DNA of 64,000 nucleotides, taken from assembly GCA_024688885.1 (NCBI GenBank), contig JAILDV010000002.1, forward strand, positions 1 to 64,000, written 5' to 3'. Under the pieces are notes generated by a model. The model made no database searches, was not told the DNA's origin, and was given only the letters and a program-made list of their open reading frames with translations. A program made the translations under genes and the position numbers. Positions 57,209-63,249 of this stretch are shown in pieces. How positions within the stretch are numbered: position 1 is the stretch's first letter; each line of letters begins with the position of its first letter. The stretch comes from Bacteroidaceae bacterium (lineage in GTDB: Bacteria > Bacteroidota > Bacteroidia > Bacteroidales > Bacteroidaceae).

Positions 57209-57433
57209 TCATGACGGATATGAATCTAAAAACGATGAATTATACTGTATCAAAAAGCCAATGAGCCAATGTGACTCATCAGAAGATATTCTTTGGTTTG
57301 GGTCATAATCGTCAAGCTTGGAGATTGATATATGACTATCCTCAAATAACGAAAACAGCAAAGCATAAAAGACCCCATCTTTTTGAATGAGGTCTTTCAA
57401 TTTATTCAGTGCTATTTGGGTCTCTTTATTCAT
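57209..57433 (-). CDS. Small protein coupled to the restriction enzyme gene, possibly truncated
   Basis: This 74-aa frame, MNKETQIALNKLKDLIQKDG, then FYALLFSLFEDSHISISKLD, ends in FLIQYNSSFLDSYPS. Its ATG immediately follows the TAA of the large restriction-type gene, so it is the last gene of the island operon. It looks like an intact helical N-terminal domain whose C-terminus may be cut off: right after the stop is ATGACAGGGGACAGTCCCTC (minus strand), a sequence common in repeats. I do not recognise a family. Confidence 0.55.
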   Translation of the reverse strand: MNKETQIALNKLKDLIQKDGVFYALLFSLFEDSHISISKLDDYDPNQRISSDESHWLIGFLIQYNSSFLDSYPS

Positions 57434-60400
57434 TTATCTTTTTTTTAGATTCATATCCTTAATAATCAAATCTATAAACTCAATATCTTCTTGACTTAAT
57501 TCATAACGAGAATACAAGTCATCATCAGTCCAACTACGTGAGAAATCCAAACGTGGAGCAAACTGGTACATATCTACACGCATATTCTGATTACTTCGGA
57601 GAAGATTAACCATAAAGCGGAAGAACTTTGTTCGCATATATGAAGCGAGATTTCTAGCTTTCGTCTCATCATTGTCACATTCTATCACATAATGAGTATT
57701 AGCGGTTGCAGTTCCTGGAGCAGAAACGATAGGTTCACTTATAACCAAATGAGGCAGTTCGTCGCCACCAGAACTTGACTTAGCGATTAATACCTTCCAT
57801 TGGGTTAACAAACCATCATGTTCTTTTGTAAACTCACTATCTTTTGCATAGCCAGTTTTGCCTTTTGCAAGATAAACTAATGTCTTGCGTAATTTTGTTT
57901 TTCTTTTTCCGACAAGCCAGTTGTCGCTACCTTCGTTCGGGAAGCCAAAGGCATTGCGTTTACGCATCATTCCATTGTCAGGAATAAAAGAAGTTTCTCT
58001 ATCTAAAACTTGCTGAAGAATAGAAAGTCCTTTATTCCATCTTATTAAGAAATCAGCTCGATAAGTTTCATTAGAGTATCTCAACATACGTCTCATAGGA
58101 TAGTCGTGATGATTAATCTTATTGATAAACAAGCAATCACCATCGTAATTAGCATCCCACAAGAATAGGCACAATCCACCTCGTAACGTCGTAACTCCTT
58201 TGATATAAGTCTCAACATTTGGGTAATCGTGGAATTCTTTTATATGTCGATTGCCAATCTCGTCAGAAAGCATGTATTCTCTAAACTCAGGCAGTAACTC
58301 ACCCCGTCCTCCTGTATACCAAGTCGATTGCATCATCATTGCAATGTACCGAGGATTGAGATTGTCTTTTACAAGATTAAAGAACAGATGGTAAATAGCA
58401 CTACCTCCGTCACCTCGTCCTCCACCTCGTCTTTCCCTAAATGGTGGAACACCAAGAACTACAGAATAGTTATCGTTAACTAATTCCTCTATCAACTCAT
58501 TATTCGTATCTTGGATTATATCATATGAGTAGTACGTTTTGACATTTTCAACTGGCAGGTCAAGCAATTTGTATATCTTACGAGTCAACTCATATGTTAG
58601 TGGTGATGTTGGAATTGATACAACATTTGCATTAATTATATCACCATATTTCTTTTTTAATGCGCACACCAATTCACCTTGTACAGTGGAAATGTCAAGG
58701 ATCTTCGTTTGTGCGTTAATGTCTTCTTCAGGTATTAATGAAATCAGTTCATCTGCTAATAGAGTTGGAGTAACAACCTCGGAATCTGAAACACGTGCAA
58801 ATCGAGTCATTGCGTTTTTTGCACGTTGCAATGGCTCTATCCTCTCATCACGCATCAACATATTGATGTTTTGAATCTTGTAATCAAGTTTACTAAGAAT
58901 AAAAGGATTACACTTATTCTGAATTAGCCATAAGATAGGCACCTTCAAACCAAGATTCTTGGCAATTCTTCTGTTAGACAGATTACCATCAGCAATGCTA
59001 TGAATAACAGAATCTAGTGATTTCACTTCTGACTCTGTGAGGAATGCGTAGAACAATATTTTTGAATAATATGCTGCCAGTTTCTTGGAGATGCTTTCTT
59101 GTTCGTCATCATCATTGCTACCAGATGAGTTCTCGGAATCATTTCCAGATGAACTGTTGTTTGGATTCTCATCAGTAGGTACAGTTGGAATTGTATAGTC
59201 GCTATCCCCTTCACCTTCATTTGGTGAGAACTCCAGTCCTTTTGCTGCATCAATCTCTTTCATGCTTTCAATTTCTGTTCGGAATTCCGCATTATCAAGA
59301 AGAGAAAAATCATATGGAATATCTGTAGCTTCATCAATAATACTCTTATTTTGAGAGTATTGCTGAACAACAGCCATTACGTCTGTCGCTTCAACTTGCT
59401 TTAACTGGTTGTGGTTAAGGGTAATAATCGGAGAAATTACCAACTCTCTTTCAATGCGTTTTTGAAGCTTGTCATTACCATTCCTTTCAGTATTGACATT
59501 ATAGAATTGAGATTTGAGTTCCTGCATACGGAACATTCTATCTGGGTCAAAATCAACAAGGAGGGTTTGAGGTTTCATGTTGTATCGAATCTCATTTCCT
59601 AATTCATCCTTGTACACACGAATGTATTGATTTTGAATACGGAAAATTGCTTGATCGTATTCTTGTGGAGATGCAGTATCTTTGAAATACAGCATAGTAT
59701 CCCACTCCCTAACAGTACTTCCTGTAAGCATTCTGTTAACTGTTAGTGTAATAGTTTTTTCGCCATTCTCCTCGCATGATTTAATCTTTTTCTTCACGTC
59801 ATCCGTATCTTCATAAGTGCGTTCATCTTCTACACCTGCAATGTTTATAATGGTATACTGACTCAAATTTTTAAAATGTTCAGAGTATTGAATAAGTAGT
59901 GACTCCAACGCATCGCAAGAAGCTCTATATGGCAATACACAAACAATATGTCTGCACATTTTGCCATCTTTGATTTTGTCGTAATCTAAGAAACCCAAAA
60001 GATTTTCATCTGAACGACTTCCATCTATTACTTCCATCAACTCAAGAATCTCACGTTCATTTACGAATCGTTTGTGCTGATTATCTGGAGTCTTGATAAG
60101 TGATACAGGCTTAAATAATGCCGAAAATGCAAATGTAACACCATTGTCTTTCATCTCCTTCATTCTTCTCATTGAAGAATCGTTGGGATGAAATGCAAAT
60201 CGTACCATCTGAGGAAATCCATAATACGGATTTTTCCACTCTGGTTCATCATCGTTTAGGATGTTCTCATAATCCCATTTTTCCTTTGCATCAACGATAT
60301 CTGTGTATTGACAAAAAGCTATTATATCATCCTTTGTGAATTCATCACCCATCAAGATTCTATATGGTGTTCCAGACAGATGCAGTCTTATTGTCGCATG

Positions 60401-61399
60401 TAGAGTTTTAAGTTCTTCACTTATTTCGTCAGATGTTTCTGCATTTTGGATTTCATTCCGTAACTCATTAGCACTAAGTCCATTGTATTGCAGAACTTTA
60501 CCATATTCAGAAGCGCGAGCACCAAAATGCGTTTCATCTACAATAAGCAAATCTATAGTGGAAGAAAAAATCTCATGATGATGGCTTTTGATTTCTGAGC
60601 CTTGTAAATCTTGTAATGTCAAGAAGAGAGCTACTTTTCCACCTTCATTTAATGTGGAAGAGATAACACTATTATTCCTACGCAAGTCATCTCCATCAAA
60701 GAATTTGAATCCATCAAATCTAATATGGCTTTCAACAGTCTCTTTCCATTCCTTACGGACATCAGCCTTTGCAGAAACAATCAAAACAAACTTTGCCTGG
60801 ATTTCTGTGGCGCAACACATTGCCGTAAATGACTTTCCGAAACGCATAACTGCATACATCAATAAGTTTGTTCTACCGTTTTCTACTGCATTCACAAACT
60901 TATCAATTGCTTCTTGCTGATTGCTACGTGGATCAAAACTTTTGTCGCGTGGATATGTTAGGCGGACAGGTAAGTGGTCTGCGGTAGCAGTATAAAGCTT
61001 ATATTTTTCACTTCCTTCATTTTCACATGATTGAATATCTGCAATTGCTTCGTCAATATCATTTGGTTGAGCGTTTTGAAAGAACTCTCTAGAATAATAA
61101 ACACCCTGTTCAAGTTCTTCTGGTCGCAATCGGTGTAATCCCTTATCTATTTCAAGGAAACTATGTACAGCATAATCTCTGAATATGTTGCCACTATCAA
61201 GCATCGCTGTATGTGAATAATGTTGAATCAGATTAGGGTAGTACTGACGCCATTCTGTTAGTCTTGTAGATACGGGACGATAAGTATCACCAACTTTCAG
61301 ATAGTTGGGTACTGTCTCTGTACTAAATGCGTAAATGTATGGATTTACGCGCCCTACAATCATAGTGTCAAGTAGGGAGGTGTCTATGAGTTGTGGCAT
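57434..61399 (-). CDS. Giant GIY-YIG-like nuclease / superfamily 2 helicase / degenerate adenine-methylase protein
   Basis: This protein of about 1321 aa has, in order: a GIY-YIG/T5orf172-like N-terminal domain (YIYAFSTETVPNYLKVGDTY with a following conserved Arg, about 20-115); a helicase with motif I LMYAVMRFGKSFTAM (about 180-195), DEAH-type VDETHFGAR (about 288), motif III LSGTPYR (about 342) and motif VI QAIFRIQNQYIR (about 584); an acidic Ser/Asn linker (about 730-770); and an Eco57I-like methylase region with VVTPTLLADELI, ILDISTVQGELVCAL, and VVLGVPPFRERR where NPPY is expected. Loss of that Asn suggests the methylase is inactive and used for DNA recognition. The ATG at 61399, 2 bp after the methyltransferase stop, is chosen; a TTG at 61405 is possible. 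Confidence 0.85.
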   Translation of the reverse strand: MPQLIDTSLLDTMIVGRVNPYIYAFSTETVPNYLKVGDTYRPVSTRLTEWRQYYPNLIQHYSHTAMLDSGNIFRDYAVHSFLEIDKGLHRLRPEELEQGVYYSREFFQNAQPNDIDEAIADIQSCENEGSEKYKLYTATADHLPVRLTYPRDKSFDPRSNQQEAIDKFVNAVENGRTNLLMYAVMRFGKSFTAMCCATEIQAKFVLIVSAKADVRKEWKETVESHIRFDGFKFFDGDDLRRNNSVISSTLNEGGKVALFLTLQDLQGSEIKSHHHEIFSSTIDLLIVDETHFGARASEYGKVLQYNGLSANELRNEIQNAETSDEISEELKTLHATIRLHLSGTPYRILMGDEFTKDDIIAFCQYTDIVDAKEKWDYENILNDDEPEWKNPYYGFPQMVRFAFHPNDSSMRRMKEMKDNGVTFAFSALFKPVSLIKTPDNQHKRFVNEREILELMEVIDGSRSDENLLGFLDYDKIKDGKMCRHIVCVLPYRASCDALESLLIQYSEHFKNLSQYTIINIAGVEDERTYEDTDDVKKKIKSCEENGEKTITLTVNRMLTGSTVREWDTMLYFKDTASPQEYDQAIFRIQNQYIRVYKDELGNEIRYNMKPQTLLVDFDPDRMFRMQELKSQFYNVNTERNGNDKLQKRIERELVISPIITLNHNQLKQVEATDVMAVVQQYSQNKSIIDEATDIPYDFSLLDNAEFRTEIESMKEIDAAKGLEFSPNEGEGDSDYTIPTVPTDENPNNSSSGNDSENSSGSNDDDEQESISKKLAAYYSKILFYAFLTESEVKSLDSVIHSIADGNLSNRRIAKNLGLKVPILWLIQNKCNPFILSKLDYKIQNINMLMRDERIEPLQRAKNAMTRFARVSDSEVVTPTLLADELISLIPEEDINAQTKILDISTVQGELVCALKKKYGDIINANVVSIPTSPLTYELTRKIYKLLDLPVENVKTYYSYDIIQDTNNELIEELVNDNYSVVLGVPPFRERRGGGRGDGGSAIYHLFFNLVKDNLNPRYIAMMMQSTWYTGGRGELLPEFREYMLSDEIGNRHIKEFHDYPNVETYIKGVTTLRGGLCLFLWDANYDGDCLFINKINHHDYPMRRMLRYSNETYRADFLIRWNKGLSILQQVLDRETSFIPDNGMMRKRNAFGFPNEGSDNWLVGKRKTKLRKTLVYLAKGKTGYAKDSEFTKEHDGLLTQWKVLIAKSSSGGDELPHLVISEPIVSAPGTATANTHYVIECDNDETKARNLASYMRTKFFRFMVNLLRSNQNMRVDMYQFAPRLDFSRSWTDDDLYSRYELSQEDIEFIDLIIKDMNLKKR

Positions 61400-61401
61400 A
61401 A

Positions 61402-63000
61402 TCAATCAAAAAAAGATAACTGTAATTCGTTTTCAACTACTGATCTCTTGTTTTCCTTCCTTTGTGGAATTGCTCTACAGCTTCCATTCTCAACAACTAC
61501 GTCATAGTGCTTATACACTGAAACAGATGGCTGAAAATTGATACAAACATTAGAACCCATCTTTATTAGCTTAAAGAGTGGTTCCATTTTGTTTTTGTCC
61601 TCTTCGCTTAAACCAACTACATCAATATCAATACTATCAGCAGCTGAATAATAAGCACATAACTGCGGAATGTAAGTCAAAGATTCAGCAATGCTTGCTA
61701 ATTTGATTGACACATGGCTCAGTTCTGAAGGAAGCGTATTAATTTTTTCAAAGCTATCTATAATTGGAGTTCCTCCTCCTAATTTGAATGCTTGAATGTA
61801 GAAATTCTTTTCTGAATCCATTTTAGGCTCCTTCTTGGTAATAAACGACTCAAAATCAAGCATGGTTCTAATCTTTGAAGCAATATCATTCCCAATTTGA
61901 GTAGGAACGGCTTCTCCGATACAACGTCTGATATTTCCTTCGTTTTCCTTTAGGTATTCATCTGAATTTTCAACAGTTAATTTATCATCGTGGTCAGTCC
62001 ATCTAAATGTATTTGGAATTGTCATCAATGTCATTAACTCTCTAATGCTCAAAACTCTGTTGTCACAAGGGTGTATTGTGTCTTGTGAAGACATAACATC
62101 ACTTCTTGTAGCAATACATGCGCCAGGTCGATCCCATATAAGTCGGCGATACTTATTTCCCATATAGGCTCCTTTATTAATGATACGATTACCATCTGCA
62201 TCAAAGGTACATGGTTTCGTTTCATCGGGATTGTCAAAAGCCGTTTCACCTTCTTTCAAATCTTTGATCCAATCAAGCATATATTCTGGGAAAGGGCGTG
62301 CGAAATGGAAAGGATCATTCTTGTCCTTTTCACAATATTGTAGTCTTGCGAATTTACCAATAGAATCTTTTAGTAATATTTCTTTCTGGCGAGTAGGAAA
62401 TAAATGAAGCGGAGATATGTGAGTTAGTTGCTTGCTTGTGCCAATTACAATAGTTCTTGGACGGCTTGAAGGAACTCCATAATCTTTGAAATTTATAACC
62501 TTCCAGTAAATGTTATATTCCTCTGAAAGATTTTTATAGATACTATCTTTGATAATCATATCTTCCCCTGAAACATCGGTACAAATAGATTTCATAAATG
62601 CACGAACGTTCTCAAACACAAAGATTTTAGGATGTATCTCCTTAATCAGTTTCATAGCTTGAACAACCAATGAGTTTCTAACTTGTTCGTGATCATTCTT
62701 CTTATAGTTTGCCGTTGACATTCCCTGGCAAGGAGGTGTCGCAAACACTACATCAACTTGCTCCAACCCCTCTTTTTCATGCCACATATTTATTTCATCA
62801 TATATGCGCTGATGGGTTTCGGATGATGTGGCATCACCACAAATGTAGCCAGATTCATATTTGCACTTGTGATTGACACGTTGAATTTCAATTCGTGGTT
62901 GTAAAAGCTCATTAGATGCAATGCAATCAAATCCATTCATTTTGAAACCATAACATCCAACTCCAGCACAACTAAAAAGTGTTATATATGTAGGATTCAT
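61402..63000 (-). CDS. DNA (cytosine-5) methyltransferase
   Basis: This 532-aa C5 methyltransferase has motif I TLFSCAGVGCYGFKMNGF, motif IV ATPPCQGMSTAN with catalytic Cys91, motif VI FVFENVRAF, motif VIII VPSSRPRTIVIG and motif X GEAVPTQIGNDIASKI near 363-378. After the catalytic domain (about residue 390) there is an unusual C-terminal extension of about 140 aa without a recognised domain. It lies between the XRE regulator (3 bp upstream) and the giant nuclease gene (2 bp downstream). It most likely protects host DNA from the downstream enzyme. The target sequence cannot be predicted. Confidence 0.93.
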   Translation of the reverse strand: MNPTYITLFSCAGVGCYGFKMNGFDCIASNELLQPRIEIQRVNHKCKYESGYICGDATSSETHQRIYDEINMWHEKEGLEQVDVVFATPPCQGMSTANYKKNDHEQVRNSLVVQAMKLIKEIHPKIFVFENVRAFMKSICTDVSGEDMIIKDSIYKNLSEEYNIYWKVINFKDYGVPSSRPRTIVIGTSKQLTHISPLHLFPTRQKEILLKDSIGKFARLQYCEKDKNDPFHFARPFPEYMLDWIKDLKEGETAFDNPDETKPCTFDADGNRIINKGAYMGNKYRRLIWDRPGACIATRSDVMSSQDTIHPCDNRVLSIRELMTLMTIPNTFRWTDHDDKLTVENSDEYLKENEGNIRRCIGEAVPTQIGNDIASKIRTMLDFESFITKKEPKMDSEKNFYIQAFKLGGGTPIIDSFEKINTLPSELSHVSIKLASIAESLTYIPQLCAYYSAADSIDIDVVGLSEEDKNKMEPLFKLIKMGSNVCINFQPSVSVYKHYDVVVENGSCRAIPQRKENKRSVVENELQLSFFD

Positions 63001-63003
63001 TCT

Positions 63004-63219
63004 TTATCTTGCTTTTTTCGTATTTCTTACGAGTTCAGTATAATCGACTTCTAACAAGTCTGCAATCTTAAATAAAATTTCAAGAGTGGGTTGAGATTGA
63101 TTTGTACACCATTTTGACACGGTTGTTGGATCTTTACCCAATTCTTTAGCAAGCCATCTGGCAGTTTTATTCTTTTCTACCAGCATAACTTTAATTCTGT
63201 TTAGTCCATTATTTTCCAT
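63004..63219 (-). CDS. XRE-family regulator of the restriction-modification island
   Basis: This 71-aa protein is one helix-turn-helix domain: NKTARWLAKELGKDPTTVSK, then WCTNQSQPTLEILFKIADLL. The size and first-gene position match controller (C) proteins of restriction-modification systems, which delay nuclease expression when the operon enters a new host (family knowledge). Its promoter overlaps a palindrome TTTGTACAAA that could be its own operator. Confidence 0.85.
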   Translation of the reverse strand: MENNGLNRIKVMLVEKNKTARWLAKELGKDPTTVSKWCTNQSQPTLEILFKIADLLEVDYTELVRNTKKAR

Positions 63220-63235
63220 CTAAAATAAATTGAAT

Positions 63236-63249
63236 TTTGTACAAAGATA
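63236..63249 (-). promoter_or_regulatory. Promoter and possible operator of the restriction-modification operon
   Basis: The -7 box TATCTTTG (CAAAGATA at 63242-63249) overlaps the perfect palindrome TTTGTACAAA (63236-63245). On the minus strand TTTGTA occurs twice in tandem across it. The XRE ATG at 63219 follows about 20 bp later. Confidence 0.55.

Follow-up and report, generated by a model that had tools for sequence, protein, structure and literature searches.

A cytosine methyltransferase in the place of the usual methylase subunit, beside a GIY-YIG/SF2 restriction protein that lacks the motif IV asparagine, in a Bacteroidaceae genome

The closest described relatives of the restriction operon analyzed here are the pairs that PADLOC models as PDLC03626, a large protein, and PDLC03390, a subunit of about 335 aa. 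The operon occupies positions 57209-63219, minus strand, of the first 64,000 nucleotides of contig JAILDV010000002.1 (Bacteroidaceae bacterium, assembly GCA_024688885.1), a stretch called the window below, and its 1321-aa protein is like the large protein of those pairs from end to end (48-51% identity in loci L038, L039 and L064). It differs from them in having a cytosine-C5 methyltransferase (the 5-methylcytosine, or m5C, enzyme) as partner and in having lost the Asn of motif NPPY; the PADLOC models lump both variants. Type ISP enzymes (LlaGI, LlaBIII) carry a nuclease, a translocase, a gamma-methylase and a target recognition domain (TRD) in one chain and in that order (PMC3874165, section 42), an order common to the window protein, whose TRD is placed by variability. 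However, the window protein begins with a GIY-YIG-like domain and not with an Mrr-like PD-(D/E/Q)XK nuclease, its methylase site is lost (GVPPF), and a separate m5C enzyme stands beside it. Translocation by Type ISP enzymes is ATP-driven, one-way and involves head-to-head sites; of this, the window protein shows the motor motifs. Type IIG enzymes, by definition, have no ATP motor. The window protein matches the PADLOC model PDLC03626 ('REase_MTase_IIG') with 1120 bits, but its fused methylase is incomplete and superfamily 2 (SF2) helicase motifs are present.

DnmA-YeeB-YeeC of B. subtilis combines a methylase, an SF2 helicase and a T5orf172/GIY-YIG protein in one set, and is likened to the window here by its kinds of parts. 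It consists of three separate genes and an active N6-methyladenine (m6A) enzyme (GACGAG) (PMC9973331), whereas in the window the GIY-YIG-like domain and the helicase are fused and the separate enzyme is an m5C methylase. A second, split system with parts similar to these is present in the window's own genome (L042:5633-11720, on G000:C8), and consists of a GIY-YIG/helicase gene, a 495-aa methylase with NPPY and a 231-aa subunit; two 102-aa open reading frames (ORFs) between helicase and methylase look by eye like a HigA/HigB-like pair. CglI and NgoAVII share with the window operon an m5C methylase, an SF2 ATPase and a nuclease, and their cutting is ATP-dependent (PMC4267653). However, no PLD nuclease or B3 domain family was found by Pfam at E <= 1 in any of the four window proteins. 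RM.BpuSI, which is not known to have a motor, is a fused gamma-methylase restriction enzyme with an accompanying m5C methylase, as in the window. That companion is described in section 37 of PMC3874165. The NPPY of BpuSI is active and required for cutting, and changing its Asn to Ala abolished S-adenosylmethionine (SAM) binding, methylation and cleavage altogether (PMC3817140); the window protein, in contrast, has lost this Asn. A literature search by titles and first lines of abstracts, with most subscription journals and REBASE outside its scope, turned up no report in which a GIY-YIG/SF2/methylase enzyme has an m5C methylase as its partner, none of NPPY loss in such systems, and none of a restriction methylase with a clamp-binding motif.

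An earlier note on this DNA, made from its sequence alone, had suggested a distinct ATP-dependent restriction type. Given the precedents of CglI/NgoAVII (PMC4267653) and BpuSI (PMC3874165), that suggestion is unsupported, and we rejected a new 'type' because the family is already modelled and widespread, its large protein being common beside the PDLC03390 subunit. The homologues are thus classified as far as the large protein is concerned, but their usual partner is that subunit and not an m5C enzyme. The layout, which the note had called unusual, is precedented in so far as an m5C methylase, an SF2 ATPase and a nuclease occur together in CglI/NgoAVII; the m5C enzyme in the usual subunit's place and the lost Asn, neither of which the note mentioned, are what set it apart.

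Relatives of the large protein were matched at E <= 0.001 in 36 of 393 genomes sampled from the order and in 105 of 399 sampled from the family, counts in which the window's own genome and short matches to the helicase alone are included. From a scan of named genomes, the best 80 of 153 relatives were retained, and 100 distinct loci were pooled for comparison once the duplicates L169 and L170 had been removed. Among 20 fetched stretches, 11 held a fused protein and 9 a split set of a GIY-YIG/helicase gene and a methylase gene, mostly with a short subunit; one of these 9 is in the window's own genome. The usual partner was defined as a tblastn match (E <= 1e-3) to the subunit of L038 or L047 whose end lies no more than 1.5 kb upstream of the large frame or no more than 0.4 kb into it. 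This methylase subunit, typically 300-350 aa, was present in 86 of the 100 loci; another ORF lies between in a few (L067, L083), and the partner in L102, of 222 aa, is related to the split-type subunit. The L038 subunit matched PADLOC PDLC03390 (Type II methylase) with 400.6 bits and had no match in Pfam. A cytosine-C5 methylase took the subunit's place in 8 of the 100 loci (the window, L058-L063 and L171). Six loci had no partner class: L048 and L052 have split-type genes, L084 is broken, and L106, L133 and L176 are at contig ends. No relative of the usual subunit was found in the eight m5C-type loci at E <= 1, nor in a scan of the window's genome, which had no positive control and so shows little. 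Chance pairing of the m5C gene with the large gene was ruled out, as it recurs in eight loci whose genomes carry different names or numbers. Viral contigs scanned with the large protein gave one relative, having the usual partner, and zero relatives when scanned with the m5C protein. Two Prevotella phages of about 540 kb, Lak-A2 and Lak-C1 (hits H33 and H34), encode a relative of residues 20-987 with 28% identity.

The partner type coincided with the state of motif IV. Residue 984, counted like all residues of the 1321-aa protein from the ATG of its frame, is the Asn of NPPY in 83 of the 83 usual-partner rows that cover the site (L101, L130 and L177 do not). In the m5C-type rows it is Val in six, Gly in one (L062) and Asn in one (L063), leaving 7 of 8 without the catalytic Asn; L171 has a double replacement, G983V with N984V. 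Fisher's test of partner type against Asn984 gave p 1e-9, with kinship ignored. The association is strong and the events are few. Locus L133, in which motif IV reads AAPPY, lies on a contig that starts inside the gene (L133:1-3570), with the partner off the contig; we predict an m5C partner for it. Loci L063 and L086 are on short contigs titled Caldisericia and Woesearchaeota, which suggests either transfer or a binning error.

Outside motif IV, the nuclease, motor and cofactor residues of the large protein are kept. The N-terminal domain belongs by sequence kinship and by fold to the T5orf172 branch of the GIY-YIG superfamily; Foldseek gave no significant match for it. Residues Y23, R46 and D75 occur in all eight m5C-type rows and in each of the 76 near usual-partner rows that cover these positions; R46 is not kept in the 9 distant rows. 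The putative catalytic acid, which is expected to be Glu in a GIY-YIG domain, is Asp here (D75). Walker A (Thr for Ser in one row), DExH, SGTP and FRxQ are kept in 8 of 8 m5C-type rows. Because motif X, motif I and the motor and GIY-YIG residues are all retained in the eight rows, motif IV alone appears altered. Among five fused proteins scanned with the Pfam Eco57I model, the window (29.1 bits), L062 (33.6) and L063 (33.9) scored lower than L038 (86.5) and L067 (78.9). The coordinates of these and other features are listed in Table 1.

Table 1. Positions of the operon's genes, domains and motifs and of neighboring features (window coordinates unless a locus is named)
Feature	Position	Strand	Remarks
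XRE-type regulator, 71 aa	63004..63219	-	44-46% identity to the XRE preceding the operon in L038 and L039
Cytosine-C5 DNA methyltransferase (m5C enzyme), 532 aa	61402..63000	-	core about 1-385, extension 386-532
C-terminal QLSFF of the m5C enzyme, then D and stop	61408..61422	-	resembles a sliding-clamp-binding motif; Phe for Leu at position 4
Restriction protein, 1321 aa	57434..61399	-	GIY-YIG-like domain, SF2 motor, gamma-methylase fold without catalytic Asn, C-terminal region
GIY-YIG-like domain (T5orf172 kin), residues 12-138	60986..61366	-	I22, Y23, K35, G37, R46, D75, H79, E105, F107 in 8/8 m5C-type rows
SF2 helicase/translocase, residues 151-720	59240..60949	-	motifs MRFGKS, DETH, SGTP, FRIQ
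Eco57I-like gamma-methylase fold, residues 866-1060	58220..58804	-	motif X 'TP', motif I D902, G908, E909 in 8/8 m5C-type rows
Motif IV GVPPF, residues 983-987	58439..58453	-	Val984 against Asn in all 83 usual-partner rows covering the site
C-terminal region taken as TRD, residues 1100-1262	57614..58102	-	placed by where relatives vary most
Small ORF, 74 aa	57209..57433	-	begins directly after the large-gene stop; operon membership doubtful
Candidate promoter element TATCTTTG	63242..63249	-	spotted by eye, weak; resembles Bacteroidota -7 element
PDC-M33A, B, C matches (326, 149, 99 bits)	L178:9223-12802 = G000:C7 ~65222-68801		upstream of operon; C gene = DUF6339

Selection was measured on relatives, because synonymous divergence (dS) against the window was saturated in nearly every comparison. 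Between L058 and L060, the ratio of nonsynonymous to synonymous divergence (dN/dS) was 0.067 for the large gene as a whole (methylase fold 0.133, C-terminal region 0.030) and 0.056 for the m5C gene, and frames were open over about 1300 codons in all eight m5C-type large genes. The low ratios indicate purifying selection and argue for use, at least in relatives. In usual-partner pairs the C-terminal region is sometimes unrelated despite a similar motor, as in L064-L070 (helicase dN 0.035, C-terminal dN 0.557), while some pairs retain it. At helicase identities of 0.68-0.76, median C-terminal identity was 0.26 in 155 usual-partner pairs compared to 0.65 in 6 m5C-type pairs; these comparisons omit 12 and 14 usual-partner rows that are distant or fragmentary, and pairs are not independent. 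All 28 m5C-type pairs had C-terminal identity of at least 0.318, with helicase identity down to 0.55, and this conservation was matched by 1 of 5000 random and 2 of 72 nearest-neighbor sets of eight usual-partner rows. The C-terminal region is often exchanged in the usual-partner kind and apparently not in the m5C kind. A single TRD that serves both cutting and marking may be free to change, whereas one whose marking is done separately may be held. A related argument has been made for Eco57I, in which the accompanying methylase confines diversification (PMC3874165, section 37).

The m5C enzyme has a PF00145 domain (127.8 bits), and PPCQ and ENV are present in all eight such enzymes. The C-terminal extension of about 150 residues had no Pfam match, and a structure model of the enzyme, built from 7 sequences, was too poor to use (predicted local distance difference test score, pLDDT, 41.7). 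Clamp-binding motifs follow the consensus QL[S/D]LF or, in looser form, QxxLF; one lies at the C-terminus of PolC (PMC12309361). Seven of the eight m5C enzymes have a clamp-like ending, QLSFF (in some followed by D), QLSLF or QLALF, and share a mean of 16% in the 20 residues preceding it. Of 935 mechanically called ORFs of at least 100 aa in the loci, six end in this manner, and all six are m5C enzymes; the seventh, L171, was outside that set. QLDLF is carried by a Y-family polymerase in the window's own genome, and QLSLF or QLSFF is internal in 2 of 55 usual-partner subunits examined (L099, L121). The use of PCNA by DNMT1 is a eukaryotic parallel (PMC9690074). Outside this operon type, the nearest kin found for the m5C core make up the N-terminal half of proteins about 830-880 aa long in 5 genomes (49-51% identity over about 385 aa). 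In these two-headed methylases the second half is Eco57I-like (47.1 bits by Pfam in L196) and keeps NPPY or NPPF (L191, L193-L196), unlike the window protein, and no clamp-like motif was found in the five examined (from four genomes and a Psychrobacter plasmid). In the four genomes fetched (L193-L196), the two-headed gene is followed by an ORF of 390-400 aa, and the two of these ORFs that were scanned had HNH similarity only, below threshold. Two-headed methylase and following ORF perhaps form a separate restriction-type system.

The four genes of the operon were confirmed as real and are separated by 3, 2 and 0 bp. The packing with junctions of 0-3 bp described in the earlier note was therefore borne out, its domain calls and gene order hold, and its N-terminal domain does model as GIY-YIG. 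Its small coupled ORF fared differently: no homologue was found among the 100 loci at E <= 1e-3, which leaves membership of that ORF in the system unsupported. A terminator-like hairpin lies within the small ORF (57282-57258; the scan gave 6 such sites compared to 3.6 in shuffles). The promoter candidate in Table 1 was compared with TAnnTTTG, the Bacteroidota -7 consensus, and a sigma-70 type promoter scan of the region showed no excess (26 sites, 26.4 in shuffles). Of the 86 usual-partner loci, 32 have an XRE relative upstream; of the 8 m5C-type loci, the window alone does. G+C was 0.33-0.39 across the operon in 1-kb windows compared to 0.43-0.56 in the preceding 9 kb. Just past the window's edge, three genes match the candidate defence models PDC-M33A, B and C of PADLOC, so the surroundings look like a defence neighborhood.

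As read from its sequence, the operon is a variant of a known family, with a different partner, loss of the built-in catalytic residue, a C-terminal region whose conservation agrees with these changes, and a clamp-like tail that was not expected. Taken together, these data suggest an ATP-dependent restriction enzyme that uses its methylase fold as a non-catalytic reader and has left self-marking to a separate m5C enzyme, perhaps clamp-tethered, a reading that we consider probable. The surest of the proposed steps is that the m5C enzyme alone would mark host sites. With less certainty, the dead methylase fold and the TRD would read the target and license cutting only of unmarked sites. Less certain again, the SF2 motor would use ATP to leave the site and the N-terminal GIY-YIG domain would cut, as in Type ISP. 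In the least certain step, the QLSLF-like tail would dock the m5C enzyme on the replication clamp, and new DNA would be marked ahead of the cutter. PCNA is thought to help DNMT1 likewise. The fuller proposal, in which the self-mark changed from adenine methylation to clamp-tethered m5C (as in the DNMT1-PCNA parallel), the dead domain reads unmarked sites and specificity was thereby frozen, is tentative, and we regard it as plausible without favoring it.

Several observations weigh against a non-catalytic reader served by an m5C enzyme. On the tree (95 rows, with 5 omitted), two changes are required to explain the m5C label, but a single clade of nine rows, the eight m5C-type rows and L133, was not rejected (approximately unbiased (AU) test, p 0.066); we therefore do not claim independent origins of the partner swap. 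The tree offers 1-2 independent contrasts, for which the sign test gives p 1. Locus L063 has an m5C partner, yet keeps NPPY and has no clamp-like tail. Only three of the seven tails (L058, L061, L171) fit QL[S/D]LF exactly; position 4 is Phe in the window, L060 and L062, and position 3 is Ala in L059. With the m5C rows cut to four lineage representatives, 615 of 20000 random sets of four equal their C-terminal conservation, and the selection estimates come from relatives. That the usual subunit and large protein together are an adenine methylase is our inference from the large protein's NPPY and an FTP-type motif in the subunit. Finally, the Asn change in BpuSI abolished cleavage as well as methylation, and DnmA-YeeB-YeeC, made of similar kinds of parts, gave no phage protection in B. 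subtilis.

These last two points would fit a relic, in which the methylase site died and restriction was lost with it, leaving the m5C enzyme as an orphan. The N406A mutant of BpuSI, which loses cleavage (PMC3817140), makes this possible, and the authors of the DnmA-YeeB-YeeC study conclude that theirs is an orphan (PMC9973331). However, motor and nuclease residues are kept in all eight rows, the frames are open in all eight, and the large gene of the pair L058 and L060 is under constraint; moreover, deletion of the dnmA and yeeB homologues of Vibrio crassostreae raised sensitivity to some phages (PMC9973331). We consider a relic unlikely. Alternatively, this could be an ordinary Type IIG/ISP-like enzyme that goes on methylating adenine despite its altered motif IV, while an accessory m5C enzyme marks the other strand, as for BpuSI. 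Retention of motifs X and I, and of NPPY in L063, would fit, as do the accessory m5C enzymes known for Type IIG (PMC3874165, section 37), but the usual subunit was not found in the m5C-type loci or the window's genome in the searches described above. The Asn, Asp or Ser of motif IV forms hydrogen bonds, and Val or Gly would be unexpected there, which makes continued adenine methylation quite unlikely. It is highly improbable that the large protein is a modification-dependent nuclease, using its dead methylase domain to bind modified DNA, while the m5C enzyme has an unrelated role, as the tight gene coupling and conserved C-terminal region suit a matched pair and an m5C-dependent cutter next to an m5C maker would be self-toxic unless their sites differ.

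According to a review, a Type IIG enzyme that has a companion methylase might retain the methylase activity of its own chain for a role other than protection (PMC3874165, section 37). A group in which the built-in methylase is apparently lost and the rest seemingly maintained, beside relatives that keep it, is a natural experiment on the purpose of the built-in methylase. Whether sharing one recognition domain frees specificity to evolve can be tested on the conserved C-terminal region. If the clamp-like tail binds, the marking step of a restriction system would be linked to the replication fork. If the exchange of chemistry is true, this family would offer a natural swap of the chemical tag that separates self DNA from foreign DNA.

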